IMG/VR virus record: IMGVR_UViG_3300035698_018500
Location: 1 to 52,182 of that record
Direction: 5' to 3' (one strand)
DNA length: 52,182 nucleotides
Source of the DNA: a virus
The position numbers and the translations under genes are program-made. Shown here piece by piece: positions 3,893-35,777 of this stretch. The notes below the pieces were generated by a model. That model was not told where the DNA came from, did no database searches, and saw only the letters and a program-made list of their open reading frames with translations. Each line of letters opens with the position of its first letter. Positions within the stretch are counted from its first letter, which is position 1.

Positions 3893-6847
3893 TTGATAAA
3901 TTTAGACGATATACGAGGGCGTTCAGCCATTTCATTGCTTGAGACATATGAAGGGATAAATCCATACATCAAAAAACTAAAAATAGCTTTTTTGAAAAAT
4001 AATAAATTAGCTTTAACTGAAAACCAATCAAAGTACATTACTGAAAACCATGAAAGAGAACCTCTTTTCATTAATAGGATTGTTGGTATAACTCCTTATC
4101 TAGGTGAAGAACTAAAAAAAATGGATGAGTTATCGTTCACACCAGAAAAAGTTTTAATTGAATTTATTCTTGCTGATACAGATAAAACATTTCATATATA
4201 CGGCAAACTAAAACAAAACCAAAAAGAGTCTAAAATGTATTGGTTACCTAAAACACAGCTAACTGATGACCCATATTTTGAACCTAGTAATATAGAAGTA
4301 GATTTTAACCTATATAACGAAGTTTTATCAGAATATGGAAAGAAACTATATCAACACCAAGAAGAAGGTGTTAAATTCCTTCTTTCCAGAAACGGTTGTA
4401 TTTTAGCTGATGATATGGGGTTGGGGAAAGCTTGGTTATCGAGTACTTACATATACACCCCTAAAAATAAGGTTAAAATAGGTACACTTAAAGTAGGTGA
4501 CAAGGTAATTGGTTCTGATGGAAACCCATGTAATGTTACTGGTGTTTTCCCACAAGGGGTTAAAGATTTATATCGTATTACGTTTAATGATGGTTATAGT
4601 GGTTTAGTTTGTAAAGAACATTTATGGACTGTATCGTCAAATAATTCTGGTAATAATTCAAAAAATAGAGAAAATAGGTACATTACACTAAGTACCGAAC
4701 AAATGCTCAATAAAGAATTGGTTATTGAACAAAAAGGGACGGGTTGGAATGAAAAAAGACCATATAAATTAAAGACATATTATAAACATAGTAATGGTCA
4801 AAATAAGTGGCAAATTCCAATTGTCAAACCAATAGAATTTTATAATAATATTGAATTACCGATTGAACCTTATTTATTAGGACTTGGTTTAGGGGATGGT
4901 TATTTTGATAATAGAAATAATATTAAAATAGAATTACACCAAAATGATTTTGAAGAAATATTTAAAAAACTAAATATTAATGAATACGCTGCAACAAATA
5001 ATAATCTAACAGCCTACATTAAATTAAATCATGAATTAATAGATTTAGGTTTAAACAATAAAAAATCAGATACTAAATTTATCCCTAACATCTATAAATA
5101 TTCATCAATTAATGATAGAATAGCTATACTACAAGGTCTCATGGATACTGATGGTCATTGTATTAAATCTAATGCTGGTGTATTTACTGGTACCGAGTAC
5201 TGTAGTGTATCGGAACAACTAACTGATGATGTAGCTGAAATTGTTCATAGTTTAGGTGGTATTGTTAGAAAATCATCTAAGGTTGGTTCTTACAAAAAAG
5301 AGGATGGAACTAGGGTAATATGTAAACGTGCTTTTAGGTTAAATATCAAGATGCCAGAAGGTATTAACCCATTTAGACTTAAAAGAAAAGCTAATTCTTA
5401 TAACTCGCCAAAAAAATATCCAGTTGGTCGATATATTTCTAATATTGAATTAGAAACAAAAGGTGATGCGGTATGTATTTCTGTAGATACTCCAGATAAG
5501 TTATATGTTGTCGAACATGGAATTGTTACACACAATACAACACAATCGATTGTAGCGGCACTAGAAAGTGGTGCTAAAAAAATATTAGTCGTTTGCCCGT
5601 CATCAACAAAAATTAACTGGGAGCGTGAAATTAATGTTTTTTGTGATGACACAACAATTATCGATGGTAAAAAATGGAGTGATGCTAAATTCACTATAAT
5701 TAATTTTGATATTCTTAAAAATTTCCATACTTTATCTTCTGGTAAAAAACCAAAAGAAGGTGAACCAGAAGAAATTTTAAATAGAGAATTGGTAAACGCT
5801 AATTATGATTTATGTATCATTGATGAGGCTCATTATTTAAAAAATAATGAAAGTATTAGAGGTAAAATAATGGTGGAACTTTGTGCTAAGGAAAAAATAG
5901 AGAAGGTTTGGTTGTTAACTGGTACACCCGTCGCAAATAGACCTATGGATTTCTTTAATCTTTTAAAGATTATTAAATCTCCTATCGCAGATAATTGGAA
6001 ACATTATGCTGTAAGGTATTGTGATGCTAGAAAGTTCTTTAGAACGCTTAAGAATGGTCAAAAAAAACAAATATGGCTTACTGATGGTGCTAGTAATTTA
6101 GAAGAACTAGCTAATAAAACCAAAAATACTATTATTAGACGTTTAAAAACTGAAGTGTTAGATATGCCAGATAAAGTAGTGACACCTATGCACCATATGT
6201 TAGATAAAAAAGGTGTTAAACAATATGAATTACTTTGGGAAGAATACTTACAAAAAAGGAAATTAGAGGGTAAGAAAACAGATAATCTACAAAAAGATTT
6301 GGTTGAACTTATTCTACTTAGACAATTTATTGCGCAAGAAGCTATTCCTTATACTATTGAAATGATAGAAAACGCTATTGAAATGGGTCGTAAAGTGATA
6401 GTATTTACTAGTTTTACTGATGAATTAGAAATGATATCTAATCACTTTGGTAAATTGGCGGTTAAACACAACGGCCTAATGACAACATTACAAAAACAAA
6501 AATCAGTTGATTCGTTTCAAAACAACGACAAGGTAAAAGTTTTTGTTGGTAATATAAAATCTGCTGGTGTTGGTATCACACTTACTGAAGCAACTGTGGT
6601 TATTTTTAACTCATTTGATTGGGTTACTGGTAATAACGAACAAGCTGAAGATAGAGCGTATAGAATTGGACAAAAGAATGATGTTAATGTTTATTATCAA
6701 TTATTTGACGACACTATATCAATAAGGATGTGGGAAACTTTAAAACAAAAACAAGAAATAATTAACATAATATTAGGTGTTGAAAATATAACCAAAGAAA
6801 ATGAAACAGATTTATTAACCCAAAAAATATTGAATGGTGATTTATAA
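3893..6847 (+). CDS. SNF2/DEAD-type helicase carrying an in-frame intein
   Basis: Superfamily 2 helicase of the SNF2 type. The order is a basic N-terminal region, QHQEEGVKFLL and Walker A DDMGLGK (residues 173-179), an inserted intein (180-548), then TTQSIVAAL, DEAH (IIDEAHYLK), LLTGTP, and the C-terminal lobe with AGVGITLTEAT and the motif VI segment EDRAYRIGQ. It probably acts in replication, recombination or repair like T4 UvsW-class helicases. No ATG exists near the start. The frame opens after a stop at 3878-3880 and the most likely start is the TTG at 3893, since ...DIRGRSAISLLETYEG looks like a native N-terminus. A second, broken copy of the last 71 codons lies at 9340-9552. Confidence 0.88.
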   Translation: MINLDDIRGRSAISLLETYEGINPYIKKLKIAFLKNNKLALTENQSKYITENHEREPLFINRIVGITPYLGEELKKMDELSFTPEKVLIEFILADTDKTFHIYGKLKQNQKESKMYWLPKTQLTDDPYFEPSNIEVDFNLYNEVLSEYGKKLYQHQEEGVKFLLSRNGCILADDMGLGKAWLSSTYIYTPKNKVKIGTLKVGDKVIGSDGNPCNVTGVFPQGVKDLYRITFNDGYSGLVCKEHLWTVSSNNSGNNSKNRENRYITLSTEQMLNKELVIEQKGTGWNEKRPYKLKTYYKHSNGQNKWQIPIVKPIEFYNNIELPIEPYLLGLGLGDGYFDNRNNIKIELHQNDFEEIFKKLNINEYAATNNNLTAYIKLNHELIDLGLNNKKSDTKFIPNIYKYSSINDRIAILQGLMDTDGHCIKSNAGVFTGTEYCSVSEQLTDDVAEIVHSLGGIVRKSSKVGSYKKEDGTRVICKRAFRLNIKMPEGINPFRLKRKANSYNSPKKYPVGRYISNIELETKGDAVCISVDTPDKLYVVEHGIVTHNTTQSIVAALESGAKKILVVCPSSTKINWEREINVFCDDTTIIDGKKWSDAKFTIINFDILKNFHTLSSGKKPKEGEPEEILNRELVNANYDLCIIDEAHYLKNNESIRGKIMVELCAKEKIEKVWLLTGTPVANRPMDFFNLLKIIKSPIADNWKHYAVRYCDARKFFRTLKNGQKKQIWLTDGASNLEELANKTKNTIIRRLKTEVLDMPDKVVTPMHHMLDKKGVKQYELLWEEYLQKRKLEGKKTDNLQKDLVELILLRQFIAQEAIPYTIEMIENAIEMGRKVIVFTSFTDELEMISNHFGKLAVKHNGLMTTLQKQKSVDSFQNNDKVKVFVGNIKSAGVGITLTEATVVIFNSFDWVTGNNEQAEDRAYRIGQKNDVNVYYQLFDDTISIRMWETLKQKQEIINIILGVENITKENETDLLTQKILNGDL
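4430..5536 (+). other. intein with class 3 features and LAGLIDADG endonuclease, in the helicase P-loop
   Basis: 369 residues inserted in frame between GLGK and TTQS. Removal restores the Walker A sequence DDMGLGKT. The intein begins with Ala (AWLSSTYIYTP) instead of Cys or Ser and ends VTHN before Thr+1. It carries Trp in block B (EHLWTV), Cys in block F (AVCISVD) and Thr in block G (IVTHN). This is the Trp-Cys-Thr triad that defines class 3 inteins, where the block F Cys replaces the N-terminal nucleophile. Two LAGLIDADG motifs (LGLGLGDGYF and LQGLMDTDGH) indicate a homing endonuclease. It is clearly related to the PhoH intein at 34035-35129. Confidence 0.88.
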
Positions 6848-6936
6848 TTTTTTTCTTCTAACTTTACTCCTATTCAAATTACCTTCATAATGAACAGTTA
6901 CTAATTTCATATAAAAATATATAAATTTAGTTTTTT

Positions 6937-8103
6937 TTAGTTAGAGAAACTGTAAATTCCTCTATTATAAATATTAATACTTGCATTATAATCAGCATCT
7001 ATTTCATATTTACAACTTGTACATTTGAAGTTCTCGCCTTGGCGAGACTTCTTATCTACATGACCGCAACTAGAACATGTTTGTGAGGTATATGCTGGTG
7101 AAACCTTCACCAACATAATACCGTTATCCTCACATATCCTATTTATTTTATCAATGGTCTTGACATAAGACCATCTTTGTATTTTATTTGTAAAATATTT
7201 CTTACCAGTTTTAACTGATACTAAATCTTCTATTATTATATTATTAACATCTTCGATGTTAATTAAATTACATAACCTATTTATTTCATTATCTCTATGA
7301 TTTAAACTTCGTTTAAATCCATTACTACCTTGTTTACATCTACTTATTTTAGAATATATATCACTTAAATCACCATTAATAACTTGATTATCAGATGTAA
7401 CAATTAATTTTTTATACCCCATATCAATTCCAATGGCTTTGCCATTGGTTTTAATATCTATCTCTTTTTCCCAAATAAGGCTAATATAATAATTATTTTT
7501 TACCTTCTTAATTTGTATATTATTTCTTAATTTAAACGTATTATGTTTAAATGATAATGAATGTTTATGGTGATTAAATGGTATATTTATTTGTAGGGCA
7601 CGAGTGCCCTTTTCATTAAAATAAGGTAATTTAAGATTAATAAAGTTATCAAAATGGGAACCATTTTGTATATTAAAAAATTCATTTGTTAGATTAATAC
7701 TAACATTATTTAGATTAGGTTTAGTGAAATATTTAGTTTTTAATATATTATTTAATGATAGGTCAGAGAATTTAGTTTTACAGAATGAAGAATCAGGATG
7801 ATTCTTCATCATATATGTGTATGTTTTTTTATATGATGAATATCTTTTCTTTTTACTTTTATCTAATTGACTTCTTATAATTTCTGATGCTTGTTTATAT
7901 ATTTCTCTTTTATATTTAGAATGTTTTATTACTTCTGTAGGAAGTAATTTAGATGATAAATTAGGTTTAAGGGGTAATACACCCTCTATTATATAGTTTA
8001 TATATATTTCTAAATCATGTTTATAATCAATAAATACTTGGTCAAGGGAAGCAAGCTTCCCTTGATTAGCATTTGATATAATATGTTTAGATGTTCTAAT
8101 CAT
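6937..8103 (-). CDS. tnpB: TnpB-type RNA-guided nuclease (IS200/IS605 OrfB family)
   Basis: 388 residues, about the usual TnpB length. The RuvC-like catalytic residues all appear present: Asp in AIGIDMGYKK (about 225), Glu in IIIEDLVS (about 290) and Asp in EIDADYNAS (about 372). A zinc ribbon CSSC...CTSC lies between the last two. Family knowledge says TnpB cleaves DNA next to a transposon-associated motif, guided by an RNA made from its own 3' end and the downstream flank. No TnpA transposase is present nearby. Instead the gene starts within the stop codon of a 49-residue RHH gene (TAATG overlap). It lies antisense to the helicase, directly after its stop, inside the nuclease island. Confidence 0.88.
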   Translation of the reverse strand: MIRTSKHIISNANQGKLASLDQVFIDYKHDLEIYINYIIEGVLPLKPNLSSKLLPTEVIKHSKYKREIYKQASEIIRSQLDKSKKKRYSSYKKTYTYMMKNHPDSSFCKTKFSDLSLNNILKTKYFTKPNLNNVSINLTNEFFNIQNGSHFDNFINLKLPYFNEKGTRALQINIPFNHHKHSLSFKHNTFKLRNNIQIKKVKNNYYISLIWEKEIDIKTNGKAIGIDMGYKKLIVTSDNQVINGDLSDIYSKISRCKQGSNGFKRSLNHRDNEINRLCNLINIEDVNNIIIEDLVSVKTGKKYFTNKIQRWSYVKTIDKINRICEDNGIMLVKVSPAYTSQTCSSCGHVDKKSRQGENFKCTSCKYEIDADYNASINIYNRGIYSFSN

Positions 8104-8252
8104 TATTTATTTTCTAATTCTTTTAGAATCAGTTTAGTAATTAATTTAGACATACCAATATTGTTTTCCAAACAATATTGTTGCAATTCAGTTTTAGTAG
8201 AATCTGTGATTCTTATAAAAACTCTATTTGTTTTATTTATTTTTGTTCGCAC
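8103..8252 (-). CDS. small ribbon-helix-helix DNA-binding protein (partner of TnpB)
   Basis: A 49-residue ORF starting with GTG at 8252. Its core RVFIRITDSTKTELQQYC followed by NNIGMSKLITKLILKEL has the beta-strand, helix, helix pattern of the Arc/CopG/ParD ribbon-helix-helix fold. The stop overlaps the tnpB ATG (TAATG), so the two are co-translated. It aligns by eye with the RHH proteins at 8817-9224 and 10659-10808, which also precede nuclease genes (shared IRI...K...C...S..I pattern). RHH proteins usually repress their own promoter, so autorepression of the nuclease is the likely role. A promoter motif abuts the start, so the transcript would be nearly leaderless. Confidence 0.75.
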   Translation of the reverse strand: MRTKINKTNRVFIRITDSTKTELQQYCLENNIGMSKLITKLILKELENK

Positions 8253-8265
8253 ATTAATAAATATA
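8253..8265 (-). promoter_or_regulatory. promoter motif of the RHH-tnpB operon
   Basis: The minus-strand sequence TATATTTATTAAT ends one base before the GTG start at 8252. It is the same motif that precedes many phage operons in this window, so the mobile module is wired to phage-type transcription. Confidence 0.5.
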
Positions 8266-8332
8266 TAGATAAAATGAAAAAGATAAAAAAATATATTTTA
8301 TTTTAAAAATAAGTTTTATCTGAATGATAATA

Positions 8333-8827
8333 TTATATATTTTTATATGTTTTATTAACTACGTTAATAACACCGTTAATAATCCTAGTTGTACCCCACA
8401 TTGGTCTAAGGTTAGATAATGCATTTACAATACTAGGGTGTTCAGTCGTTTCAAAACTACCGACTGGTTTTATGTGGTCAACGTGCCATTCACCATGGTT
8501 TCTCCATGTCATACCCTCAGTAAATAATGCTGTAATATGTTCTTTAAACTCCAAAGCGGAATAACCTAATAAATCTATAGTGTGACCTTCTTTTTTGGTG
8601 TTTAATCTCCATAAAGACATTTTAAGAACACTTCTCCATAAACCAACGTGTTTATTTTTTAACCTATATTCTTGTCTTTTATTTTGGTTTATTTTATTAT
8701 ATTCTTTTTTGTAAATATTTTTACATTCTTTACATTGACAATGATAACCATCTTTACCTAAATTATTAACGTGAAATTCAGCGATTGATTTTTCAAGATT
8801 ACATTTAGTACAAATTTTAGTCTTCAT
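8333..8827 (-). CDS. HNH endonuclease with N-terminal zinc finger
   Basis: A 164-residue protein. The N-terminus has a Cys4 knuckle (CTKC at residues 6-9 and CKEC at about 33-36). The HNH core is WHVDHIKPVGSF (about residues 113-125) followed by NALSNLRPMW, the usual DHI...N..L.P.W layout of homing-type HNH nucleases. The final polar residue normally found near TDN is shifted (TTRIINGV), so activity is probable but not certain. It overlaps the upstream RHH gene by 11 nt, so the two are translationally coupled. It probably generates the double-strand break for mobility of this module. Confidence 0.8.
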   Translation of the reverse strand: MKTKICTKCNLEKSIAEFHVNNLGKDGYHCQCKECKNIYKKEYNKINQNKRQEYRLKNKHVGLWRSVLKMSLWRLNTKKEGHTIDLLGYSALEFKEHITALFTEGMTWRNHGEWHVDHIKPVGSFETTEHPSIVNALSNLRPMWGTTRIINGVINVVNKTYKNI

Positions 8828-9224
8828 TTACAATTACTGTAAAATCAATATTATATGGTGTTCTATCTTCTAAATAAAATAAAACAGAGCCATAAACCAT
8901 TTTATTATCTTTATTCGTTTTTATTTCTGACACTATAGTTTCAAAACTTAAATTTTCTTTTAATGTTTTTTCTAAAACTGTTTTAAGTGTGTGATTAAAT
9001 TCAAACAGTTCATTTGTTAAAACTTTATTTAAAACCATTTTAGTTAACAATATCTTAATTGATTTTTCTTGTGATAAAAAAATACCATCTGTGATAAAAT
9101 TAATATCATCATTTATAAATTTAATTATTTTATCACTCATTGATAAAGATTCAATTTTACATTTATTTTTAAACTTATTTTTGAGTTCAGAATTTATCCT
9201 AATTTTTATTTCAGTTTCTTTCAT
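8817..9224 (-). CDS. ribbon-helix-helix protein with extra C-terminal domain (partner of the HNH nuclease)
   Basis: From the Met at 9224 the protein has 135 residues. The first 40 (KETEIKIRINSELKNKFKNK, then ...SLSMSDKIIKFIND) form a ribbon-helix-helix domain like those preceding TnpB and the EDxHD nuclease. The rest is a helical and beta region of unknown role ending in YNIDFTVIVNED. The frame is open up to an ATG at 9272, but the promoter motif overlaps that codon, so a downstream Met (9224 chosen; 9263 also possible) is more likely. It overlaps the HNH gene by 11 nt. Autorepression of the operon is inferred. Confidence 0.7.
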   Translation of the reverse strand: MKETEIKIRINSELKNKFKNKCKIESLSMSDKIIKFINDDINFITDGIFLSQEKSIKILLTKMVLNKVLTNELFEFNHTLKTVLEKTLKENLSFETIVSEIKTNKDNKMVYGSVLFYLEDRTPYNIDFTVIVNED

Positions 9225-9271
9225 TTTATTAAATTTTATCATATTTATTATTTGTGGTAACATTGTACCCA

Positions 9272-9285
9272 TATTAATAAATATA
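9272..9285 (-). promoter_or_regulatory. promoter motif of the RHH-HNH operon
   Basis: The minus-strand sequence TATATTTATTAATA is nearly identical to the motif before the RHH-tnpB operon (TATATTTATTAAT at 8253-8265). Confidence 0.5.
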
Positions 9286-9339
9286 CTAATATTTTAAAAA
9301 AGATATAAATATTTACTTTTTATTTAAAATATTTATAAT

Positions 9340-9552
9340 GGGAATAATGAACAAGCAGAAGATAGAGCATTCCGTATTGGTCAAAAAAATGATGTCAATG
9401 TTTACTATCAATTATTTGACGATACTATTTCGAGTAGAATGTGGTCTATGTTAAATAGTAAAAAAGACATCATCAATATAATTATGGGTGATAAAAAATT
9501 AACAGAAGATGAAATAACTGCCTTATTGGTAGATGACTTAATAACAATGTAA
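9340..9552 (+). pseudogene. 3' remnant of a second helicase gene copy
   Basis: 71 codons in frame from GGG to TAA encode GNNEQAEDRAFRIGQKND, then VYYQLFDDTISSRMW, and finally a diverged tail. The first 45 codons copy the motif VI region of the intact helicase (its residues about 914-960). The end differs from it: LTEDEITALLVDDLITM against ITKENETDLLTQKILNGDL. There is no upstream coding part, since the homology starts abruptly after a promoter-like TATTTATAAT. The stop lies one base before the glutaredoxin ATG, as expected for the ancestral helicase-glutaredoxin operon. This is the piece left behind when the nuclease island moved in. Confidence 0.85.
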
Positions 9553-9553
9553 T

Positions 9554-9808
9554 ATGATAACAATTTATAGTTTCCCAGAATGCCCTTATTGCAAGGAATT
9601 AAAAAAGATTTATGATTCACAAGGCATTAAATATCGTGACGTAAACATAAACTTAGAAGAAAATATTAAAGAATGGGATGAAATTTCTGAAGCATCAAAA
9701 GCTGAAGAAGTCCCAGTGATAAAAATAGATAAACAATTATTGGTACCTAATGTTTCCTTCCAATCAATTAGTGAAGCTGTTGAGATAACTAAGAAGTTTT
9801 TAAGTTAA
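9554..9808 (+). CDS. glutaredoxin
   Basis: 84 residues, the full length of a classical glutaredoxin, with the dithiol active site CPYC (residues 9-12) in ITIYSFPECPYCKEL. EEVPVIKID carries the cis-Pro loop that binds glutathione. In T4-like phages such proteins donate electrons to ribonucleotide reductase. Its ATG follows the stop of the helicase remnant by one base. That suggests it was originally the gene directly downstream of the helicase and now depends on whatever transcription crosses or starts in the remnant. Confidence 0.88.
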   Translation: MITIYSFPECPYCKELKKIYDSQGIKYRDVNINLEENIKEWDEISEASKAEEVPVIKIDKQLLVPNVSFQSISEAVEITKKFLS

Positions 9809-9823
9809 ATTAAAACTTATTGA

Positions 9824-9838
9824 TATTTATAATAAAAC
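9824..9838 (+). promoter_or_regulatory. late-type promoter motif in front of the truncated gene start
   Basis: TATTTATAATAAAAC lies 9 nt before the ATG at 9848, a perfect copy of the recurring motif. It now drives only a 14-codon stub. Confidence 0.55.
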
Positions 9839-9847
9839 AAATTTATT

Positions 9848-9892
9848 ATGTCAATAACTATAGACGAAAAAGAAAAACTATTCCTTAGATAA
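9848..9892 (+). pseudogene. 5' stub of the 10908-12062 virion gene (second copy)
   Basis: ATG plus 13 codons encode MSITIDEKEKLFLR and then a stop. The intact gene at 10908 begins MAISNDERDKLFRQ, with M, I, D, E, K, L and F in the same places and the same promoter motif at a similar distance. The EDxHD nuclease gene (reverse strand) ends inside this stub. The element therefore broke the resident gene near codon 13 and supplied a new promoter and 5' end on its other side. Confidence 0.65.
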
Positions 9893-10658
9893 CATGATTA
9901 AGATATTTAAGGATGTTTTTTCTATATGGAATAATTATTAATTTAATATTATTATCGTTACAATAATTTTCTTTTATTTTATCTCTACTTTTTAATTTAT
10001 TAAAAACCGTTTCACCACCAAACCATTTTATTGGTTTATAATGTTGTTCCCCATGAAATTCGATACATGTGTTATAATCTGGTAAATAAAAATCGAATGG
10101 TAATTTATTAATATTTTTACAATCATTAAATTTATATTGTGGTGAAAAGTTAATTTTTTTAGATTCTAATATATTTCTAATTTCTTTTTCACCTTTTGAT
10201 TCACGACAATTCGGACAACCTTTACCTCTTAAATGTTCATACGGTAATTGTTCGAAATTTCCATGTATAGGACAAATTATATTAATTTTAGTCTTTGAAT
10301 TAATATAATTAACTAATTTATAAATATAAAAATTATAATGTTTTATTATAAATTTATTTATTAATTCATCGTTAGTGATTAATTTAATTTTTAATTTATT
10401 AGTTCTTGCTTTAATACTTTTTATACTTCTATTTAATACTTTAACACAACCATGTATGCCAATTTTACTATAATTCTCAATTAAGAAAATATCATCATTC
10501 TTAACCCATTTTTCTTCCAGAATCAACCCTAATTTAAATGCTTTCATATAAATAGATTTAGTTGTTTTACCTAATTTTTTTACACAATAATCACTACAAT
10601 TAACAGAATAATTATTTTTTAAAAAATCTATTTCATTAGTACTCCACCTATTTGCCAT
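9885..10658 (-). CDS. homing endonuclease of the EDxHD/VSR-like type with DNA-binding repeats
   Basis: 257 residues in three parts. Residues 1-90 hold two SANT/Myb-like repeats (RWSTNEIDFLKNNYS...; KWVKNDDIFLIENYS...). Residues about 125-155 hold a zinc module CPIHGNFEQLPYEHLRGKGC followed by PNC. The C-terminal VSR-like nuclease has ESKGEKEIRNIL (Glu), LPFDFYLPDY (Asp) and IEFHGEQHY with a later KSRDKIK, the E-D-x-H-D spacing of the EDxHD superfamily. Family knowledge suggests site-specific DNA cleavage for mobility. Its ATG follows the stop of a 49-residue RHH gene with no gap. The 3' end lies inside the truncated virion-gene stub. Confidence 0.8.
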   Translation of the reverse strand: MANRWSTNEIDFLKNNYSVNCSDYCVKKLGKTTKSIYMKAFKLGLILEEKWVKNDDIFLIENYSKIGIHGCVKVLNRSIKSIKARTNKLKIKLITNDELINKFIIKHYNFYIYKLVNYINSKTKINIICPIHGNFEQLPYEHLRGKGCPNCRESKGEKEIRNILESKKINFSPQYKFNDCKNINKLPFDFYLPDYNTCIEFHGEQHYKPIKWFGGETVFNKLKSRDKIKENYCNDNNIKLIIIPYRKNILKYLNHVI

Positions 10659-10808
10659 TTATAATAATTTTTTTTTTAAATCCATTTCTATTAATAATTT
10701 TATTCGTTTTGATAGTGAATAACCGTTTTTATTACAGTATTCATTGTATTCTTCTTTTATTTTTTTATTTATCCTAATATTTAAATAATCGTTGTTTTGT
10801 GTTGACAT
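10659..10808 (-). CDS. small ribbon-helix-helix DNA-binding protein (partner of the EDxHD nuclease)
   Basis: 49 residues, exactly the length of the RHH protein before TnpB. NDYLNIRINKKIKEEYNEYC followed by NGYSLSKRIKLLIEMDL gives strand, helix, helix with Ser-Lys at the helix 2 start. The stop TAA is followed directly by the ATG of the nuclease gene. A promoter motif lies about 10 nt upstream. An autoregulator of the nuclease is the likely role (inference from fold and operon). Confidence 0.75.
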   Translation of the reverse strand: MSTQNNDYLNIRINKKIKEEYNEYCNKNGYSLSKRIKLLIEMDLKKKLL

Positions 10809-10907: not shown

Positions 10908-12062
10908 ATGGCTATAAGTAATGATGAACGTGATAAGTTATTTCGTCAATTCAGACATTCATTGGGCGCACCAGTGCGTCAAATTGAATTGGAAGATGAG
11001 CAACTTTGTACCCTATTAGAAATTTCAATAGAGGACTATGCTCAATATGTCCAAGAATGGTTAGTTGAACATCAATGGCAATCTTTATTAGGTCAAAATT
11101 TAGACACAACAGATATGGCATTTGCTTTGAGTGTTAGAAACTTTAACTTTATGACCCAATATACTTATGCTTATTCTAAACAAGTTGGTTTACAGTCTAA
11201 TGGTCCGTGGGAGTTAAAAAAAGACTATGTCGAAGTTGAAGCTGGAAGACAAGTTTATGTTATCCCAGCTGGTCGTGAAATTAACGAAGTGCTTTGGATT
11301 ACTCCACCTCCCACGAATAGAGCTTTATTAGCTAATTTTGGTGGTATTGACGCTGGTTTTGGTGGTGGTTTTGGACAAATGGGTGGTGGTGTAGGTACAA
11401 TGGGTGCTGGTGGTGGAAATATGGGTTATTATATTGCACCAGCTTTTGATATATTGCTAACTGCTGCCGATATGAATTTAAAAAATCGTATTGTTAGAAG
11501 TGAATTAGCGCATAAAATAACAGCTGGACCAAACGGAACCAAACTACTTCATTTAATGAGTACTCCTGGTTCAAAATTATCTTTTGGTGGTTCAGCTGGC
11601 GGTTTAGGTACTGGGGTTGGTGGTGCAATGAACATGGCTGGTTGTCAAGTTTGGTATCACTATTACGACACTACACCAGAGAATTTAGGTAAATGTCTTG
11701 ACGACAATCCAGATATTATTAAAATGCCAAATCAAGTACCATTAGCTAGGCTAGATTACGCTGAATTTAACGAACCAACAAAAACACTTATTCGTCAGCT
11801 ATTTATTGCGGAAGCTAAAAGAGCTTTAGGCAGAACTAGAGGTAAGTTTGGTGGGATTGTTGGGCCGCCAGAAGCGGAAAGAACTATGGATTATGAAACA
11901 CTTATCTCAGAAGGTAATGACGAGAAAAAAGCTGTGTTAGAAAGATTGGAAGCTAGACTACTTAGACTTTCATCCACATCGCAATTAGAAAGAGGTGCTA
12001 AAGAAGCAACAGACTTAAATACTTCGATGAAATACAGACCATTAGGGTTTTGGGTTTATTAA
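10908..12062 (+). CDS. virion structural protein, perhaps head-tail connector
   Basis: 384 residues. The N-terminal 130 are helical and acidic (LFRQFRHSLGAPVRQIELED, then CTLLEISIEDYAQYVQEWL), like connector or neck proteins that begin by counting off helices. Residues about 145-180 are a Gly/Met-rich linker (GGGFGQMGGGVGTMGAGGG). The C-terminal part ends ...MKYRPLGFWVY. Head-completion or neck function is inferred from the look and from strong conservation pressure (its start is duplicated by the neighbouring element). I cannot assign a named T4 homologue. Confidence 0.6.
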   Translation: MAISNDERDKLFRQFRHSLGAPVRQIELEDEQLCTLLEISIEDYAQYVQEWLVEHQWQSLLGQNLDTTDMAFALSVRNFNFMTQYTYAYSKQVGLQSNGPWELKKDYVEVEAGRQVYVIPAGREINEVLWITPPPTNRALLANFGGIDAGFGGGFGQMGGGVGTMGAGGGNMGYYIAPAFDILLTAADMNLKNRIVRSELAHKITAGPNGTKLLHLMSTPGSKLSFGGSAGGLGTGVGGAMNMAGCQVWYHYYDTTPENLGKCLDDNPDIIKMPNQVPLARLDYAEFNEPTKTLIRQLFIAEAKRALGRTRGKFGGIVGPPEAERTMDYETLISEGNDEKKAVLERLEARLLRLSSTSQLERGAKEATDLNTSMKYRPLGFWVY

Positions 12063-25616: not shown

Positions 25617-26390
25617 ATGATAAATAAATTTGATTTTAACGATATATTAATTAAACCAAGTAAAACGTCTGATATAAAAAGTAGACAAGATATAAACCCA
25701 AGACGAACATTTTTTTTACCGCTTATAACTGCACCTATGGATACAGTTATAAGTGAGAAAAACAAGTTGATTTACTCTAATCTAAACATAATTACATGTT
25801 TACCTAGAGGTGAAAAAAATAATAGTGATTTTGAATCTTATTCATTGCGAGAAATAGAAGAAGAATTAAACTCTAAACGTTTAAAATCAAATGGATTTTA
25901 TTTAATAGATATAGCTAATGGTCATATGTCAAGATTAATCACCGTCACTAAAAAAATTAAAAGAACTTTACCTAAAGTTACATTAATGGTTGGTAATGTT
26001 GCTAACCCAGAAACTTATGTTGAGCTATCTAACGCTGGTGCCGATTATATTAGGGTTGGTATTGGTAACGGTGGTGGTTGTTTTGTTGGTGAAACAAAAG
26101 TAATAACAAAAGATGGTGAAAAAGACATTAAAGATATTATAATTGATGATTTAGTTTTAACACACACTGGTGAATTTAAACTAGTATCTAGTACTTTAGC
26201 TTATCCAACTAGTGAATCATTAATAAAAATAAATGAAACAATTTCAACTAAAAAACATGAATATTACGTTGTAAATAAAAAATTTTCTAATTTAGTTAAT
26301 GATAATAATATTCATGAATATGCCGAATGGTTAAGTGCCGATTTACTAACTAAAGAATATTTTTTATTGGAATACGTAACTAATGTCTGA
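25617..26390 (+). CDS. guaB: IMP dehydrogenase/GMP reductase family, N-terminal half fused to split-intein N part
   Basis: 154 residues of the TIM-barrel enzyme (FDFNDILIKPSKTSDI, PLITAPMDTV, NPETYVELSNAGADYIRVGI) end at GNGGG. Then comes an intein N-half of 103 residues starting CFVGETKVITKDG and ending in a TGA. No CBS domains are present. IMP dehydrogenase oxidises IMP to XMP, the limiting step of guanine nucleotide synthesis. The other half of the enzyme is encoded at 27436-28107 after the intein C part, so an active enzyme needs trans-splicing of two separate proteins. Between them lies a homing endonuclease. Confidence 0.88.
   Translation: MINKFDFNDILIKPSKTSDIKSRQDINPRRTFFLPLITAPMDTVISEKNKLIYSNLNIITCLPRGEKNNSDFESYSLREIEEELNSKRLKSNGFYLIDIANGHMSRLITVTKKIKRTLPKVTLMVGNVANPETYVELSNAGADYIRVGIGNGGGCFVGETKVITKDGEKDIKDIIIDDLVLTHTGEFKLVSSTLAYPTSESLIKINETISTKKHEYYVVNKKFSNLVNDNNIHEYAEWLSADLLTKEYFLLEYVTNV
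26079..26387 (+). other. split-intein N-terminal fragment (IntN)
   Basis: 103 residues from Cys1 (CFVGETKVI) to the TGA. Block A is the CFVGETKV start with GEKDIKDI, and block B is the ...THTGEFKLV... region. It sits directly before the catalytic Cys of the enzyme. Confidence 0.85.
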
Positions 26391-26409
26391 CCTTTTAATT
26401 AGTTCGACA

Positions 26410-26424
26410 TATTTATAATTAAAG
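26410..26424 (+). promoter_or_regulatory. promoter motif of the intein-associated endonuclease
   Basis: TATTTATAATTAAAG lies 2 nt before the ATG at 26427. The free-standing endonuclease thus has its own late-type promoter inside the split gene. Confidence 0.5.
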
Positions 26425-26426
26425 AT

Positions 26427-27452
26427 ATGTTAAAAGAAAAATTTAATGAGGGTAATAAATGTTTAGAATGTGGTGTTGTATTTAAAAAAGACACTAATAA
26501 TAAAAATTATTTATCTTTCATAAGTCATTTAAAAAAAGACCATAATATTAGTAATAGTGAATATTATTTAAAACATTATTTGAATAATAAAATAGTTTTA
26601 TGTGGTTGTGGTTGTGGTAAAAAAACTAATTATTTTAAAGGTAAATTTTTAAAATATTATTCTAATCATAAAAATTTTATTACCCCATCTGAAGATACTT
26701 TATTTAAAGTAAATAAATCAAAAAAAGAGTATAATAATATTGACAATTTAATAAAAAAAACTGGTATTAGTTTTGAGACAATAAATAGAACATTCGATGA
26801 GTTTATAAGGTTAGAAAAACCAATTAGTGTTTTGAGTAAAGATTTATTTATAGATTTTAGAACATTAAAAAGTTATTGGTTTAAATTAGGTCTTATTAAA
26901 AATAAAGAAGAATTTAAGCGAATCTCTTTAAAATCTAAAGTTAAGTGGATGGTAAACCCACTTAAACCTAACGATACAATTATCAATATTCTAAATGAAA
27001 ATATTTTAATTTTAAAAAAAGAATTAGAGAGTAAAGAGAAATTAACGTTTAATGATATTATAACAATAATAGGTGTTGATGTTAATAAAAATTTTTTAAG
27101 TTTTTATTTAAAAGAAAAATTATCATATAATGAGATTAAAAAAATAAAATTTATTAAACAAAGTCAGATTGAAATTGAGTTTCAAAACGTTTTAAAATTT
27201 TATTTCGGCAAATCAATTACTGGTTCTTTTGAATTAGATGGTAGAGTTTTCGACTATAAGTTAGGTAATAAAATATTAATAGAGTTAGATGGTGAATATT
27301 GGCACTCTAAAGAAGAAGCTAAAAAAAATGATTTATTAAAAAATAAGATAGCTGAAAAAAATAAATTAATATTAATAAGAGTTAATGATAAAGAGGTTAA
27401 ATCTTTAGGGTTTATTAATAAATTAAAAAAAATATATGATGAATTTAAATAA
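26427..27452 (+). CDS. free-standing homing endonuclease (EDxHD/VSR-like) inside the fractured guaB gene
   Basis: 341 residues. The N-terminus has zinc modules (CLECGVVFKKD..., a MucR-like Cys2His2 with HLKKDH; then CGCGCGKK). A helical DNA-binding middle follows. The C-terminus is VSR-like: IEIEFQNVL (Glu), GRVFDYKLG (Asp), IELDGEYWHS (His) and KKNDLLKNK (Asp), the E-D-x-H-D set known for endonucleases lodged between split-intein halves. It should cut intein-free guaB alleles and so spread the split intein. Its end overlaps the start of the second guaB half by 17 nt, so it is co-translated with it. Confidence 0.82.
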   Translation: MLKEKFNEGNKCLECGVVFKKDTNNKNYLSFISHLKKDHNISNSEYYLKHYLNNKIVLCGCGCGKKTNYFKGKFLKYYSNHKNFITPSEDTLFKVNKSKKEYNNIDNLIKKTGISFETINRTFDEFIRLEKPISVLSKDLFIDFRTLKSYWFKLGLIKNKEEFKRISLKSKVKWMVNPLKPNDTIINILNENILILKKELESKEKLTFNDIITIIGVDVNKNFLSFYLKEKLSYNEIKKIKFIKQSQIEIEFQNVLKFYFGKSITGSFELDGRVFDYKLGNKILIELDGEYWHSKEEAKKNDLLKNKIAEKNKLILIRVNDKEVKSLGFINKLKKIYDEFK

Positions 27453-27573
27453 ATATAGGTTAATAGAAATTTCTACTATTGAGGAAATTAATAATGATAA
27501 TTATGAAATGGTTTATGATTTAACTATTGAGGATAATGAGTCATACACAGCTAATAAAAATATAGTTCATAAC
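27436..27573 (+). other. split-intein C-terminal fragment (IntC)
   Basis: 46 residues ending in IVHN before Cys+1. Blocks F (VYDLTIED) and G (NIVHN) are intact. Short IntC parts of this size are typical of naturally split inteins in fractured phage genes. Confidence 0.85.
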
Positions 27574-28107
27574 TGTTCAACAACTGTACATACAGGTGTT
27601 GGTTACCCTATGGGGTCCTTGGTTCAAGAATGTTACGAACTTTCATGTACTTTAGATAAACCAGCCAAAATTGTTGCTGATGGTGGTATGCAGAATTATA
27701 GTGATATAATTAAAGCATTGGCTTTAGGTGCTGATTTTGTTATGATTGGTAGTTTATTTAATAAAGCTATAGAATCATGTGGTGATAACTATTTGTGGAA
27801 ACATATCAAGGTGTCTCAAAATATAGCTGAAAAAGCTTACAAATTAAAAATACCTGTTTATAAAAAATTTAGAGGTATGAGTACTAAAGAAGTTCAAAAG
27901 AAATGGGGTAAAGTTGTTCCAACTACGTCTGAAGGCGTTATTCGATATAGAAAAGTTGAATATACGTTACAACAATGGACAAATAATTTTGAAGATTATT
28001 TGCGTTCAGCCATGAGTTATTCTAACGCTAAAAATTTGATAGATTTTATTGGTAAAGCAGAAATAATAAAAATAACGGATAACGCTTATAACAGATTTAA
28101 AAAATGA
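27436..28107 (+). CDS. guaB: split-intein C part fused to the C-terminal half of IMP dehydrogenase
   Basis: The first 46 residues are an intein C-half (YEMVYDLTIEDNESYTANK, then IVHN). The enzyme resumes with CSTTVHTGVGYPMGSLV. The Cys directly after the splice junction is the catalytic Cys of the IMPDH/GMPR family and also serves as the +1 nucleophile. KIVADGGMQNYSDIIKALALG and ADFVMIGSLF are the phosphate-binding loops. The spliced enzyme would be about 330 residues. The start overlaps the endonuclease ORF by 17 nt; ATGATG offers two starts. Confidence 0.88.
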   Translation: MMNLNKYRLIEISTIEEINNDNYEMVYDLTIEDNESYTANKNIVHNCSTTVHTGVGYPMGSLVQECYELSCTLDKPAKIVADGGMQNYSDIIKALALGADFVMIGSLFNKAIESCGDNYLWKHIKVSQNIAEKAYKLKIPVYKKFRGMSTKEVQKKWGKVVPTTSEGVIRYRKVEYTLQQWTNNFEDYLRSAMSYSNAKNLIDFIGKAEIIKITDNAYNRFKK

Positions 28108-33800: not shown

Positions 33801-35777
33801 ATGTCAAAAAAAGTTTCAACACCGTTAAAAACAACTGCTGCTAAACCAGCTAGAACCACTAGAACTAAAAAAACAGAAACTAACGAAATTGTTTCTTCGG
33901 CACACATAAAACAAGACTTACTTAGCCAGATAAAAATAGATTTAAAACATAAGAATGAGGTTCAGAAAAAACTTACCCAATCAATCAAAAATGGTGATGT
34001 AACTATTTGTACTGGCCCAGCTGGTACTGGTAAAGCCCAACCACTTGATTCATTAATTTTAACCCCAAAAGGGTATGTTAAAATGGGTGATATTAATGTA
34101 GGTGATGAGGTTATTGGGGTTAATGGTACCCCTATATTAGTAGATGGTGTTTACCCACAAGGTGAAAAAGAAATTTATTTAATTTCTTTTTCAGATGGAA
34201 CACAAACTGAGTGTTGTGGTGAACATTTATGGTTTACTCAAACCTATGAAGAGAGGAATAAACGTAAAAGAGTAACTGATGATAATGGGAAACGTATTTA
34301 TATCGGTAAAAATCCAAATAAAGGTTCAGTTAGAAATACGATTGATATTATGAATTCGTTAGTTGTTGGTAAAAAATCACAAAAAGTTAATCACTCAATT
34401 CCAATTGTTAAACAAATTGAATTTAAAACCAAAGAAGTTACTATTGACCCTTATTTATTAGGTTGTTTATTAGGTGATGGTGGTTTTACCACACCAGCAA
34501 TATCCTTAACAACAAATGATGTACAAATTGTTGAAACGATTTCTAATATTTTACCAAAAAATCATATTCTAAAAGAAAAATATGGTCAAAATTATATTAT
34601 AAAGTCGGTTGGGGTTAAAAAAAATGATATAACAGAGTATTTACGTGAAGTTAATTTATTTGGATTAACTTCTTCATACAAATTCATTCCAGAAGAATAT
34701 CTAATTAACGATACTAACACTAGATTAGAAATTTTAAGGGGGTTATTAGACACTGATGGTTCCGTGGATACAAAAACTGGTACACCGTTATTCTATTCTA
34801 CTTCTGAGAAGTTAATAGATGGAGTAACCTTTATAGTACAATCACTTGGTGGTATAGTTAAAAAAACACAAAAAATAGGTAAATATAGAAAACTAAATGG
34901 TGAGGTAAAAGAATGTAAGGTTATTTATTCGCTACATATTAACTTACCACTAGGGGTAATACCATTTAAATTAGATAGGAAAATAAATCTAATGAAACAA
35001 AGAGTTAAATATTTTCCTATTCGGTATATTAAAAATGTTGAACTAATAGGTAAGAAAAAGGCTCAATGTATTTCTGTAAATGACGAAAACCATTTATATT
35101 TAACAAATGATTGTATTGTAACGCACAACACCTTATTAAGTGTTGCTGAGGCGTTAATCTTATTAAAAACTCACCCAGAAATTTATTATGAAATCAAACT
35201 AGTTAAATCAATCATTCAACTTAAAGATGAGGATTTAGGTACTTTACCTGGTGATGAAAGAGATAAATTAAAATTTATTATGATGTCTTTCTTTGATGCT
35301 TTCTATAAACTAATAGGTGAAGAACTAACTAATAAATTGTTAGATGCTGGTTACATAAAAATGGAGGTTTTTGGTTCTATTCGTGGTAGGTCACTATCAA
35401 ACTGTATCGTGTTATTTGATGAATTTCAAAACGTTACCGATAACAACGGAAAAACACTTCTTACTCGTTTCTCTGAAAACACCAAAGTAATAGCTCTAGG
35501 TGATAGTAATCAAGTAGATTTAAAAAAACCAGAATCTAGTTGTTTAGGTGAGTTAGTCAGAATGGCTAAATTACACCCAGAAGAAGGTGTTAATGTGGTT
35601 GAATTTACTGAAAATGAAGTTGTTAGACATAGGTTAACAAAATATTTTATAAACATTTTTGAACATAAAGACTACAAAAAAATTACGGTACCAAAACCAT
35701 CATCAAGTAGAATAATTAAAAAATCTGGTTTTTTTAGTTTTTTAAACTTTTTAAAAAAAAAAATAGATAATTTATAA
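33801..35777 (+). CDS. phoH: PhoH-like ATPase carrying an in-frame intein
   Basis: 658 residues, of which 365 are intein. A Lys/Thr-rich N-terminus (residues 1-33) precedes the P-loop TGPAGTGK (71-78). The intein follows (79-443) and the ATPase resumes TLLSVAEALILLK. Downstream come TLPGDERDKL, FGSIRGRSLSN and Walker B CIVLFDEFQN, then VIALGDSNQVDL and NEVVRHRLTKYF. PhoH-like ATPases are common in T4-like phages and often linked to nucleic-acid metabolism under stress, but their exact task is unresolved. Late-type promoter upstream. Confidence 0.93.
   Translation: MSKKVSTPLKTTAAKPARTTRTKKTETNEIVSSAHIKQDLLSQIKIDLKHKNEVQKKLTQSIKNGDVTICTGPAGTGKAQPLDSLILTPKGYVKMGDINVGDEVIGVNGTPILVDGVYPQGEKEIYLISFSDGTQTECCGEHLWFTQTYEERNKRKRVTDDNGKRIYIGKNPNKGSVRNTIDIMNSLVVGKKSQKVNHSIPIVKQIEFKTKEVTIDPYLLGCLLGDGGFTTPAISLTTNDVQIVETISNILPKNHILKEKYGQNYIIKSVGVKKNDITEYLREVNLFGLTSSYKFIPEEYLINDTNTRLEILRGLLDTDGSVDTKTGTPLFYSTSEKLIDGVTFIVQSLGGIVKKTQKIGKYRKLNGEVKECKVIYSLHINLPLGVIPFKLDRKINLMKQRVKYFPIRYIKNVELIGKKKAQCISVNDENHLYLTNDCIVTHNTLLSVAEALILLKTHPEIYYEIKLVKSIIQLKDEDLGTLPGDERDKLKFIMMSFFDAFYKLIGEELTNKLLDAGYIKMEVFGSIRGRSLSNCIVLFDEFQNVTDNNGKTLLTRFSENTKVIALGDSNQVDLKKPESSCLGELVRMAKLHPEEGVNVVEFTENEVVRHRLTKYFINIFEHKDYKKITVPKPSSSRIIKKSGFFSFLNFLKKKIDNL
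34035..35129 (+). other. intein with class 3 features and LAGLIDADG endonuclease, in the PhoH P-loop
   Basis: 365 residues between GTGK and TLLS. It starts with Ala (AQPLDSLILTPKGYV), ends IVTHN before Thr+1 and carries Trp in GEHLWF, Cys in KAQCISVN and Thr in VTHN, the class 3 triad. LAGLIDADG motifs are LGCLLGDGGF and LRGLLDTDGS. The N-terminal splicing region and block F align with the helicase intein (4430-5536), e.g. 'GVYPQG' against 'GVFPQG' and 'CISVNDENHLYL' against 'CISVDTPDKLYV'. Confidence 0.88.

Follow-up and report, generated by a model that had tools for sequence, protein, structure and literature searches.

The window analysed here is the whole of a single virus record, 52,182 bases in length (IMG/VR record IMGVR_UViG_3300035698_018500), in which three genes for small ribbon-helix-helix (RHH) proteins and three nuclease genes of unrelated families are found among the helicase, glutaredoxin and neck genes of a phage. 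All six open reading frames (ORFs) lie on the minus strand at the positions given in an earlier note on this DNA, with the ORF finder extending RHH2 to 9272. The TnpB gene (6937–8103, 388 aa; Pfam Cas12f1-like_TNB, 5.5e-20; PHROG transposase, 6e-32) is preceded by RHH1 (8103–8252, 49 aa), the gene for an endonuclease VII-like HNH nuclease (8333–8827; phrog_1035, 2.8e-21, and comparison of C termini) by RHH2 (8817–9224, 135 aa), and the gene for a Vsr-like nuclease with the motif named EDxHD (9885–10658, 257 aa; phrog_559, 6e-51; homing endonuclease phrog_9084, 2e-34) by RHH3 (10659–10808, 49 aa; PHROG match and alignment). The claim of the earlier note that each nuclease is led by an RHH gene with touching or overlapping codons was borne out when the junctions were read from the sequence: stop and start overlap as TAATG between RHH1 and TnpB, RHH2 and HNH overlap by 11 nt, and RHH3 and EDxHD are adjacent (TAA-ATG).

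RHH1 and RHH3 consist of the RHH core only (49 residues), with no toxin-binding segment beyond it, and RHH2 is longer owing to an extra C-terminal domain of unknown fold. The three proteins had earlier been aligned by eye, and their homology is upheld by phmmer and profile matches and by a bridging sequence. All three match phrog_582, "Arc-like repressor" (2e-4, 3.1e-3, and 3.9e-4 for RHH1, RHH2, and RHH3, respectively); in direct phmmer comparisons RHH1 and RHH3 match at an E value of ∼1e-3 and RHH2 and RHH3 at 0.06. The RHH of L073, one of the compared stretches (labelled L with a number, L002 being the twin record of the window), bridges all three, at 3.8e-6 to RHH1, 3.2e-5 to RHH2, and 2e-9 to RHH3. 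In an alignment of 10 rows, M1, R12, K18, C25, S33, and I36 are invariant. The RHH profile matches the PDB entries 2kel (0.0066) and DinJ (9lew, 0.0076), and RelB matches RHH3 at 0.0054, below the cut-off. The single matches are weak and the family pattern is consistent with an RHH DNA-binding domain.

In relatives with an empty site, the gene order is helicase, ∼10 bp, glutaredoxin, ∼40 bp, and neck gene. In the window, the SNF2-type helicase gene (3893–6847, plus strand; Pfam SNF2-rel_dom, 1.8e-29, and Helicase_C, 2.1e-14), which contains a LAGLIDADG intein after its Walker A motif GLGK (LAGLIDADG_3, 2.5e-5), is chimeric by the type of its C-terminal end and by the tree described below, with a foreign, element-borne 3′ end made up of the last ∼75 codons (about 6620–6847). 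Beyond it lie the antisense HNH and RHH2 genes and then a second, diverged and start-less helicase 3′ end (9340–9552, plus strand), the displaced native end, whose protein is identical in L003. The glutaredoxin gene follows (9554–9808, plus strand; Pfam Glutaredoxin, 3.1e-12), in synteny with the empty-site relatives. Displaced helicase ends were found in seven lineages (window/L003, L005, L018, the L057 group, L066/L084–L086, L090, and L096) and resume inside the codons for (G)NN-EQAEDR. Element-free alleles of the site exist in close relatives: the displaced end of L090 is the native end of the empty-site L013 at every nucleotide, and that of L096 is 95% identical to the native end of L027, which is free of this element and has an HNH gene of another kind, on the opposite strand, between helicase and glutaredoxin.

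The joined end of L090 shows 71% identity to its own displaced end, and across lineages joined ends are 67–76% identical to the displaced ends of the same locus. The joined ends of the window, L003, L005, L083–L086, L089, L090, and L092 are 83–91% identical to those of L058 and L062, both occupied although listed as empty. For L018, L032, and L095/L096, compared only with ends listed as empty, the best values are 75–78%, which for L096 is hardly above the identity to its own displaced end (76%). L003 carries the displaced end of the window (identical protein) as well as the foreign end (1 residue different), with HNH, RHH2, and TnpB missing, and reads as the scar of a lost cassette. In a tree of 57 helicase C-terminal ends (68 alignment columns), all nine displaced ends and 33 of the 38 ends labelled empty fall on one side and all 10 element-borne ends on the other, with a branch support of 94/96. 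Element-type helicase 3′ ends with no nuclease found alongside are present in L047, L053–L056, L074, and L077 and are possibly old element losses. Inserts of ∼1 kb in the helicases of L006, L025, L030, L059, and L067 had been considered as a second element and were rejected, as they lie inside one continuous helicase frame and are read as inteins, the overlap that they seemed to show being produced by the alignment; some relatives contain a further in-frame helicase insert near the motif targeted by the HNH element.

The same arrangement is seen at the 5′ end of the neck gene, which encodes a head-tail adaptor-like protein (10908–12062, plus strand; PHROG head-tail adaptor Ad2, 7.4e-7). The old 5′ end, recognized by its translation (MSITIDEKEKLFLR, stop), is found at 9848–9892 on the plus strand, and the gene now starts at 10908 with an element-borne 5′ end, the EDxHD and RHH3 genes lying between. 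Among the other compared loci with an EDxHD gene at this position, replacement of the neck 5′ end was seen only in the twin record L002. At the opposite end of the gene, neck 3′ ends displaced together with an EDxHD nuclease are present in L003, L048, and L049, and the displaced end of L003 equals the native end of the window from LERGAKEATDL onwards. At the glutaredoxin 3′ end, four of six loci with an EDxHD gene (L009, L025, L057, and L066) retain a displaced (L)TKKF(L/I)(G/A)-stop, and none was seen in L036 and L059. A displaced LHVLDGSIK-stop of a further gene lies beside the HNH-RHH operon of L182, with no displaced gene ends seen beside those of L099, L205, and L206. The displaced ends of the glutaredoxin loci and of L182 are short, and their assignment rests on position as much as on letters. 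A nuclease gene flanked by a foreign joined end and a displaced native end is found, then, at the helicase 3′, neck 5′, neck 3′, and glutaredoxin 3′ ends, and in the window both the HNH-RHH2 and the EDxHD-RHH3 insertions have replaced the ends of the genes that they invaded, a feature missed in the earlier note. In L042 and L044, an ORF of 138 aa (10001–10417), 45% identical to the first 51 residues of the neck protein, lies just before the neck gene, with no nuclease seen.

In the EDxHD nuclease, residues D189, E200, Q205, and H206 are invariant in all nine aligned rows. A Foldseek search with its predicted structure, in which the N-terminal 92 residues have a pLDDT below 50, placed Vsr second with a probability of 0.96 and an E value of 0.085, no match reaching 0.001. 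Relatives of the protein contain repeated stretches that resemble CapR and DUF723 zinc-ribbon domains, both of which the window protein matches below the Pfam cut-offs.

The TnpB gene belongs to an element of its own, taken here to be of the IS607 family, which spans 6893–8374 on the minus strand (approximate left end ∼8374, right end ∼6893; copies at 93.7–96.4% identity) and has defined ends common to several copies. Both ends are given by the copy in L165, the left by L166, and the right by L167 and by L163, which also supports the left end at 87.5% over 48 bp; the copy in L164 has shorter ends. HNH relatives end in ..YEGNLNRNKxRRKKL or a close variant. In the window, the last ∼9–11 codons of the HNH gene come from the left end of the TnpB element, and the proper HNH 3′ end (..HYEGNLNRSKVRRKKL, stop) lies beyond TnpB at 6842–6892 on the minus strand, as identified by its translation against the intact HNH C termini of L005, L018, L057, and L092. 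The TnpB element stands between the HNH C terminus and the remainder of the HNH gene, and is nested in that gene. The sister copy L163 has a serine recombinase gene (Pfam Resolvase, 2.4e-18; PHROG transposase, 2.7e-44) ahead of tnpB, and in the window, L164, L165, and L166 RHH1 occupies the place of the recombinase. The left end and the promoter region are alike in the recombinase-bearing L163 and in the RHH-bearing L165 and window, the TAATG junction is identical in them, and the serine recombinase TnpA is present in L163 only. The locus can be read as one selfish element inside another, with a repressor-like gene where a sister has its transposase gene. In bacterial and archaeal genomes, a pattern search for TnpB relatives returned 72 fitting stretches, none of them a relative, which is not proof of absence.

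To what extent RHH genes precede nucleases was assessed by searching 145 IMG/VR records (45 + 50 + 50; G021, G042, G043, and G046 are near copies among them) with a profile, A1, built from ten RHHs. Strong matches (E < 1e-10) numbered 14 in the 45 records and two and one in the two sets of 50. All 17 precede a nuclease, 16 of them directly, the exception being L073, where a second, different TnpB-like gene (8454–9626), convergent with the RHH gene, lies between RHH and EDxHD nuclease; in L164 the RHH frame continues from the upstream gene. This sample is biased, the records having been reached via the neck gene or a nuclease, with several of the RHHs inside the profile and near-copy records included. 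The least biased case is G030 (362 kb), chosen for an HNH gene without an RHH (L098), in which three RHH-nuclease pairs have RHHs from outside the profile: before an HNH gene by a DNA-polymerase-like gene, before an HNH gene near terminase-like genes, and before an EDxHD gene (neighbors named by eye). The first 45 records also gave 22 weak matches and the other two sets two and seven; in the four contexts inspected (L187, L194, L207, and L208), a different RHH of 49–50 residues lies by a tail-sheath-like gene, with no nuclease seen. The RHH-nuclease order recurs at other places and in other records, beyond chance.

The reverse count took distinct nucleases, merging those with the same last 120 residues, and accepted an RHH at an A1 E value of 1e-3 or less. 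RHH1 precedes four of the five near-complete TnpB copies and the recombinase the fifth, a weak 112-aa fragment in L101 being left out. Among close HNH relatives, an RHH precedes 8 of 11, or 10 of 11 when two contig-cut copies (L083 and L089) are replaced by their near-identical, RHH-bearing siblings (L084–L086 and L090); the eleventh, L093, has an ORF of 290 residues instead of RHH2. At middle distance, two of seven HNH genes have an RHH, and the HNH of L205, itself a query, has one. On these counts the partnership appears strong for one HNH clade and for this TnpB and occasional for EDxHD, and in the records scanned it was not seen outside this phage group. The reusable RHH-nuclease module proposed in the earlier note holds insofar as the RHH-first order recurs in all three families; it is not universal, and the window does not contain three modules side by side, since TnpB is nested in HNH. 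A 54-aa protein before the EDxHD gene of LR756501 (L284) looks RHH-like by eye and was not counted, as it gave CcdA at 0.074, no PHROG, and no clear profile match; in the same 735-kb phage (LR756501.1, L284:1089–1499), a small RHH_1 gene (7.4e-6) is divergent to this ORF, which directly precedes the nuclease.

Each operon of the window starts with the exact word TATATTTAT (at 8265, 9285, and 10834, minus strand), as the earlier note had stated, and its specificity to the module was rejected. The motif type lies within 75 nt upstream of 16 of the 52 listed window genes, and of 13 of 49 when the three RHH operons are set aside, so that it is the general promoter of the phage. A phage-type promoter motif (ATATTTATAAT) is also found at 9329–9339 on the plus strand, at the right edge of the element and facing the displaced helicase end and glutaredoxin, and would drive expression of the genes on the other side of the insert. 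Directly after the promoter motif of RHH2, all 10 of the RHH2-HNH operons examined contain a site resembling GTGGGWACAATGTTMCCAC, centered 34–39 bp before the RHH2 start. In the window it is the imperfect palindrome ATGGGTACAATGTTACCAC (9254–9272, minus strand; center 39 bp before the start), a candidate operator, and in L095 and L182, which sit at different genes, the palindrome is perfect over 47 and 29 bp, respectively. A search of 2.8 Mb of partly redundant sequence for the nearly symmetric consensus (up to four mismatches, one strand) returned ten distinct places, namely nine RHH2 starts, L095 among them, and one within the gene that precedes RHH1 in L164, a match ascribed to chance; the site of L018, with five mismatches, falls outside this result. 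As an operator common to L099, L205, and L206, GTATAAACAA was discarded, since only 3 of its 11 distinct occurrences are at RHH promoters and the choice was post hoc.

In L032, L090, L092, L095, and L182, the RHH2 protein has a different C-terminal domain. A predicted structure of the L092 protein (mean pLDDT 67; residues 1–46 below 50) matches prohead core and protease models, with a best E value of 8.7e-9 and 36 matches at 0.001 or less, several of them named prohead protease. The likely active-site positions are, by eye, not conserved in all rows of these extended RHHs, and the domain is probably not an active protease. A profile comparison of the long RHH2 with the C-extein of the prohead protease of the window gave a probability of 1.9%. 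The ORF that stands in place of RHH2 in L093 combines a terminase ATPase domain (Terminase_6N, 1.8e-7) with an RHH-like tail (RHH_1, 0.0038, below the Pfam cut-off), a fusion that lies (1210–2582) directly before HNH at the helicase/glutaredoxin junction.

Taken together, these data make it fairly probable that the locus is composed of nested gene-end-replacing homing elements, each with an RHH protein likely repressing its operon. The order of the operons, the replaced gene ends, the nesting, the recurrence, and the conserved site before RHH2 are read directly from the sequence, and from them we infer a course of cleavage, homing, immunity, and repression. In the first element, HNH would cut an element-free helicase gene, probably where it encodes the conserved C-terminal motif V(P/T)GNN-EQAEDR, and repair would copy in a cassette in which HNH and RHH2 accompany a helicase 3′ end that is foreign and diverged yet functional. 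The chimeric helicase would stay functional and presumably be immune, and the native 3′ end would remain beyond the element as a fragment. The IS607-like TnpB element, with RHH1 in the transposase slot, is inserted in the HNH 3′ end, and EDxHD-RHH3 would act on the neck 5′ end as HNH-RHH2 does on the helicase 3′ end. In each operon the RHH, translated first and coupled to the nuclease, most likely represses its own operon at the promoter, in which case the nuclease would be made briefly or at a low level after entry. A wider generalization, which we regard as evenly balanced between right and wrong, is that large T4-like phages, probably of Bacteroidota, harbor "homing-and-rescue" elements with 3′ or 5′ rescue ends, many with an exchangeable RHH repressor that was recruited by TnpB, HNH, and EDxHD alike, once replaced a transposase, and in some lineages was joined with a domain resembling a prohead protease or with a terminase ATPase domain, through which the release of the nuclease could be linked to virion assembly.

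Several observations weigh against this reading. The element-borne helicase ends do not form one clade, the tree requiring at least four label changes, and five ends labelled empty group with them: L218, on a long branch, L047, L053, and L074, which have no detected nuclease, and L093, labelled empty though carrying HNH. The HNH of the window lacks the conserved C terminus and may be dead. Both intermediate matches (3.7e-9 and 6.9e-7), from megaphages among 12 phage-collection records, have no following nuclease. An A1-type RHH precedes only 2 of 23 EDxHD relatives (L073 counted as no) and none of 40 distant HNH relatives. As to the operator, the eight sites other than those of L095 and L182 are imperfect (8 to 11 of 15 pairs), 7 of the 10 operons have a more symmetric center elsewhere in the same AT-rich stretch, and the 8 of 15 pairs of the window site are reached by 962 of 20,000 shuffles; the conservation across operons may be common descent. 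The RHH2-type site was not found before RHH1, RHH3, or the RHHs of L099 and L205, which are RHH-HNH operons with other RHHs. No operator was found for RHH1, and the one palindrome seen for RHH3, which is 10 bp long, spans the start codon, and is not present in L073, is a doubtful operator. The autorepressor role suggested in the earlier note has some support from the sequence for RHH2, where the promoter site is conserved and the palindrome near-perfect in two of ten operons.

The palindrome before RHH2 could also function in the RNA, folding in the style of T4 into a hairpin that masks the ribosome site, with the RHH doing something else. Such hairpins are used by T4 I-TevI and segB and by Aeh1 mobE, according to the available text of PMC2988022, and the site does lie between promoter motif and start codon; its center is, however, 34–39 bp upstream of the start, and the 47-bp symmetry in L095 extends into the promoter motif, a better fit to a DNA site. 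This explanation is considered unlikely, and RHH2 as an autorepressor is favored from the site common to the ten operons. The same promoter position, with the one remaining near-match not at the helicase, argues against the RHH being the DNA-targeting subunit of a two-part nuclease, which would bring a weakly DNA-binding nuclease to its site. That HNH is small, is coupled to the RHH in translation, and is inherited together with it (the 8 or 10 of 11 given above) speaks for such a subunit, but TnpB is guided by RNA and EDxHD has zinc-ribbon-like repeats, making shared targeting unnecessary, and 21 of the 23 EDxHD relatives manage without an RHH of the A1 profile; we regard a targeting role as quite improbable. 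Because the RHH is common to an RNA-guided and two protein-guided nucleases, regulation rather than targeting is the reading drawn from the partnership, and no evidence was found for the antidote or target-locator roles offered in the earlier note, the mechanistic differences among the three nucleases making shared targeting unlikely.

An addiction or toxin-antitoxin pair, in which the RHH would neutralize the nuclease protein, appears highly improbable. Antitoxin-first order, coupling, the RHH fold, and the RelB match to RHH3 fit such a pair, yet RHH1 and RHH3, at 49 residues, comprise a DNA-binding domain and no toxin-binding tail, a single RHH type would need to fit three unrelated nucleases, and L003 has lost the entire HNH-RHH2 cassette, which argues that any addiction is not strong. 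The duplicated gene ends might, finally, result from ordinary unequal phage recombination, with the nucleases carried along at the borders of mosaic segments, and phage nucleases are described at boundaries of genetic exchange in the available part of PMC10448857. Against this stand the recurrence of one joint, at identical codons, in the seven lineages with displaced ends, an element-type joined end by HNH wherever a contig shows both, and the like arrangement of EDxHD insertions at other genes, and there seems little chance that recombination of this kind accounts for the ends. Gene-end-replacing homing elements with RHHs as their probable repressors remain the reading preferred here.

The closest likenesses are found in fungi. 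The WHO elements of Torulaspora and Lachancea likewise have a free-standing homing nuclease, located downstream of the gene that it targets, bring a cleavage-resistant 3′ end, and leave 3′ fragments of the gene alongside (PMC7282813); they differ in their target, the yeast nuclear FBA1 gene, and in their HO-like intein/zinc-finger nuclease, and no companion repressor is mentioned in the available text. In the window the targets are phage genes, the nucleases are HNH and EDxHD, the orientation is antisense, an RHH partner is present, and 5′ as well as 3′ ends are replaced. The mORFs of fungal mitochondria, for which an Allomyces case is cited in the same paper (PMC3630166), also combine a foreign C-terminal end, an endonuclease ORF, and a displaced native end, but lie in mitochondrial genes and have LAGLIDADG or GIY-YIG nucleases, with no RHH gene mentioned in the available part. 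The free-standing Seg and Mob endonucleases share with the window the T4-like phage, the lack of intron or intein, tight regulation, and translational coupling, and T4 offers a precedent for autorepressed and translationally coupled homing nucleases; they are regulated through the nuclease itself, through promoters, or through RNA structure, and the available text describes neither gene-end replacement with a displaced fragment nor a separate repressor gene (PMC2988022). A literature search, with most subscription papers outside its scope, found in the available texts no gene-end replacement in phages and no RHH partner of homing nucleases or TnpB.

IS607-type TnpA-TnpB elements are similar in TnpB, in the common ends, and in the serine recombinase-tnpB junction of the sister L163, and differ in that RHH-bearing copies have the RHH gene in the transposase slot; a TnpB element whose repressor replaces the transposase of a sister bears on how TnpB persists without transposition. 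Arc/CopG-type regulators resemble the RHHs in their small fold, their position as first gene of the operon, and a candidate site near the promoter, and differ in their partner, a mobile nuclease being found here instead of a toxin or a gene for plasmid replication. The partnership suggests that three selfish nucleases of unrelated families have each acquired a single small repressor type. Homing with replacement of gene ends, known from fungi, would be extended to viruses of bacteria, in which one site is found empty, occupied, and as a scar, and the elements would be a natural counterpart of the engineered constructs called homing-rescue drives and a test of how elements spare host genes.

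The first part of the window agrees with the IMG/VR contig 3300023242_000003, with a neck protein identity of 100% and equal coordinates of the RHH matches. The capsid protein is T4-like, with Flavobacterium phage immuto the first-listed match (38.5%). Neck-gene relatives are encoded by 171 stretches, of which 80 were kept, and the phage collection contained no near DNA match to the window and no match to its neck protein. Elsewhere in the window, two separate ORFs make up an IMP dehydrogenase/GMP reductase gene (25617–28107); the second has an intein-splicing match, and a restriction-like nuclease gene (26427–27452) lies between them, the arrangement described in the literature as a "fractured gene". 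LAGLIDADG inserts read as inteins are found in the PhoH-like gene (33801–35777) and the prohead protease gene (50107–51984), in addition to that of the helicase (3893–6847).

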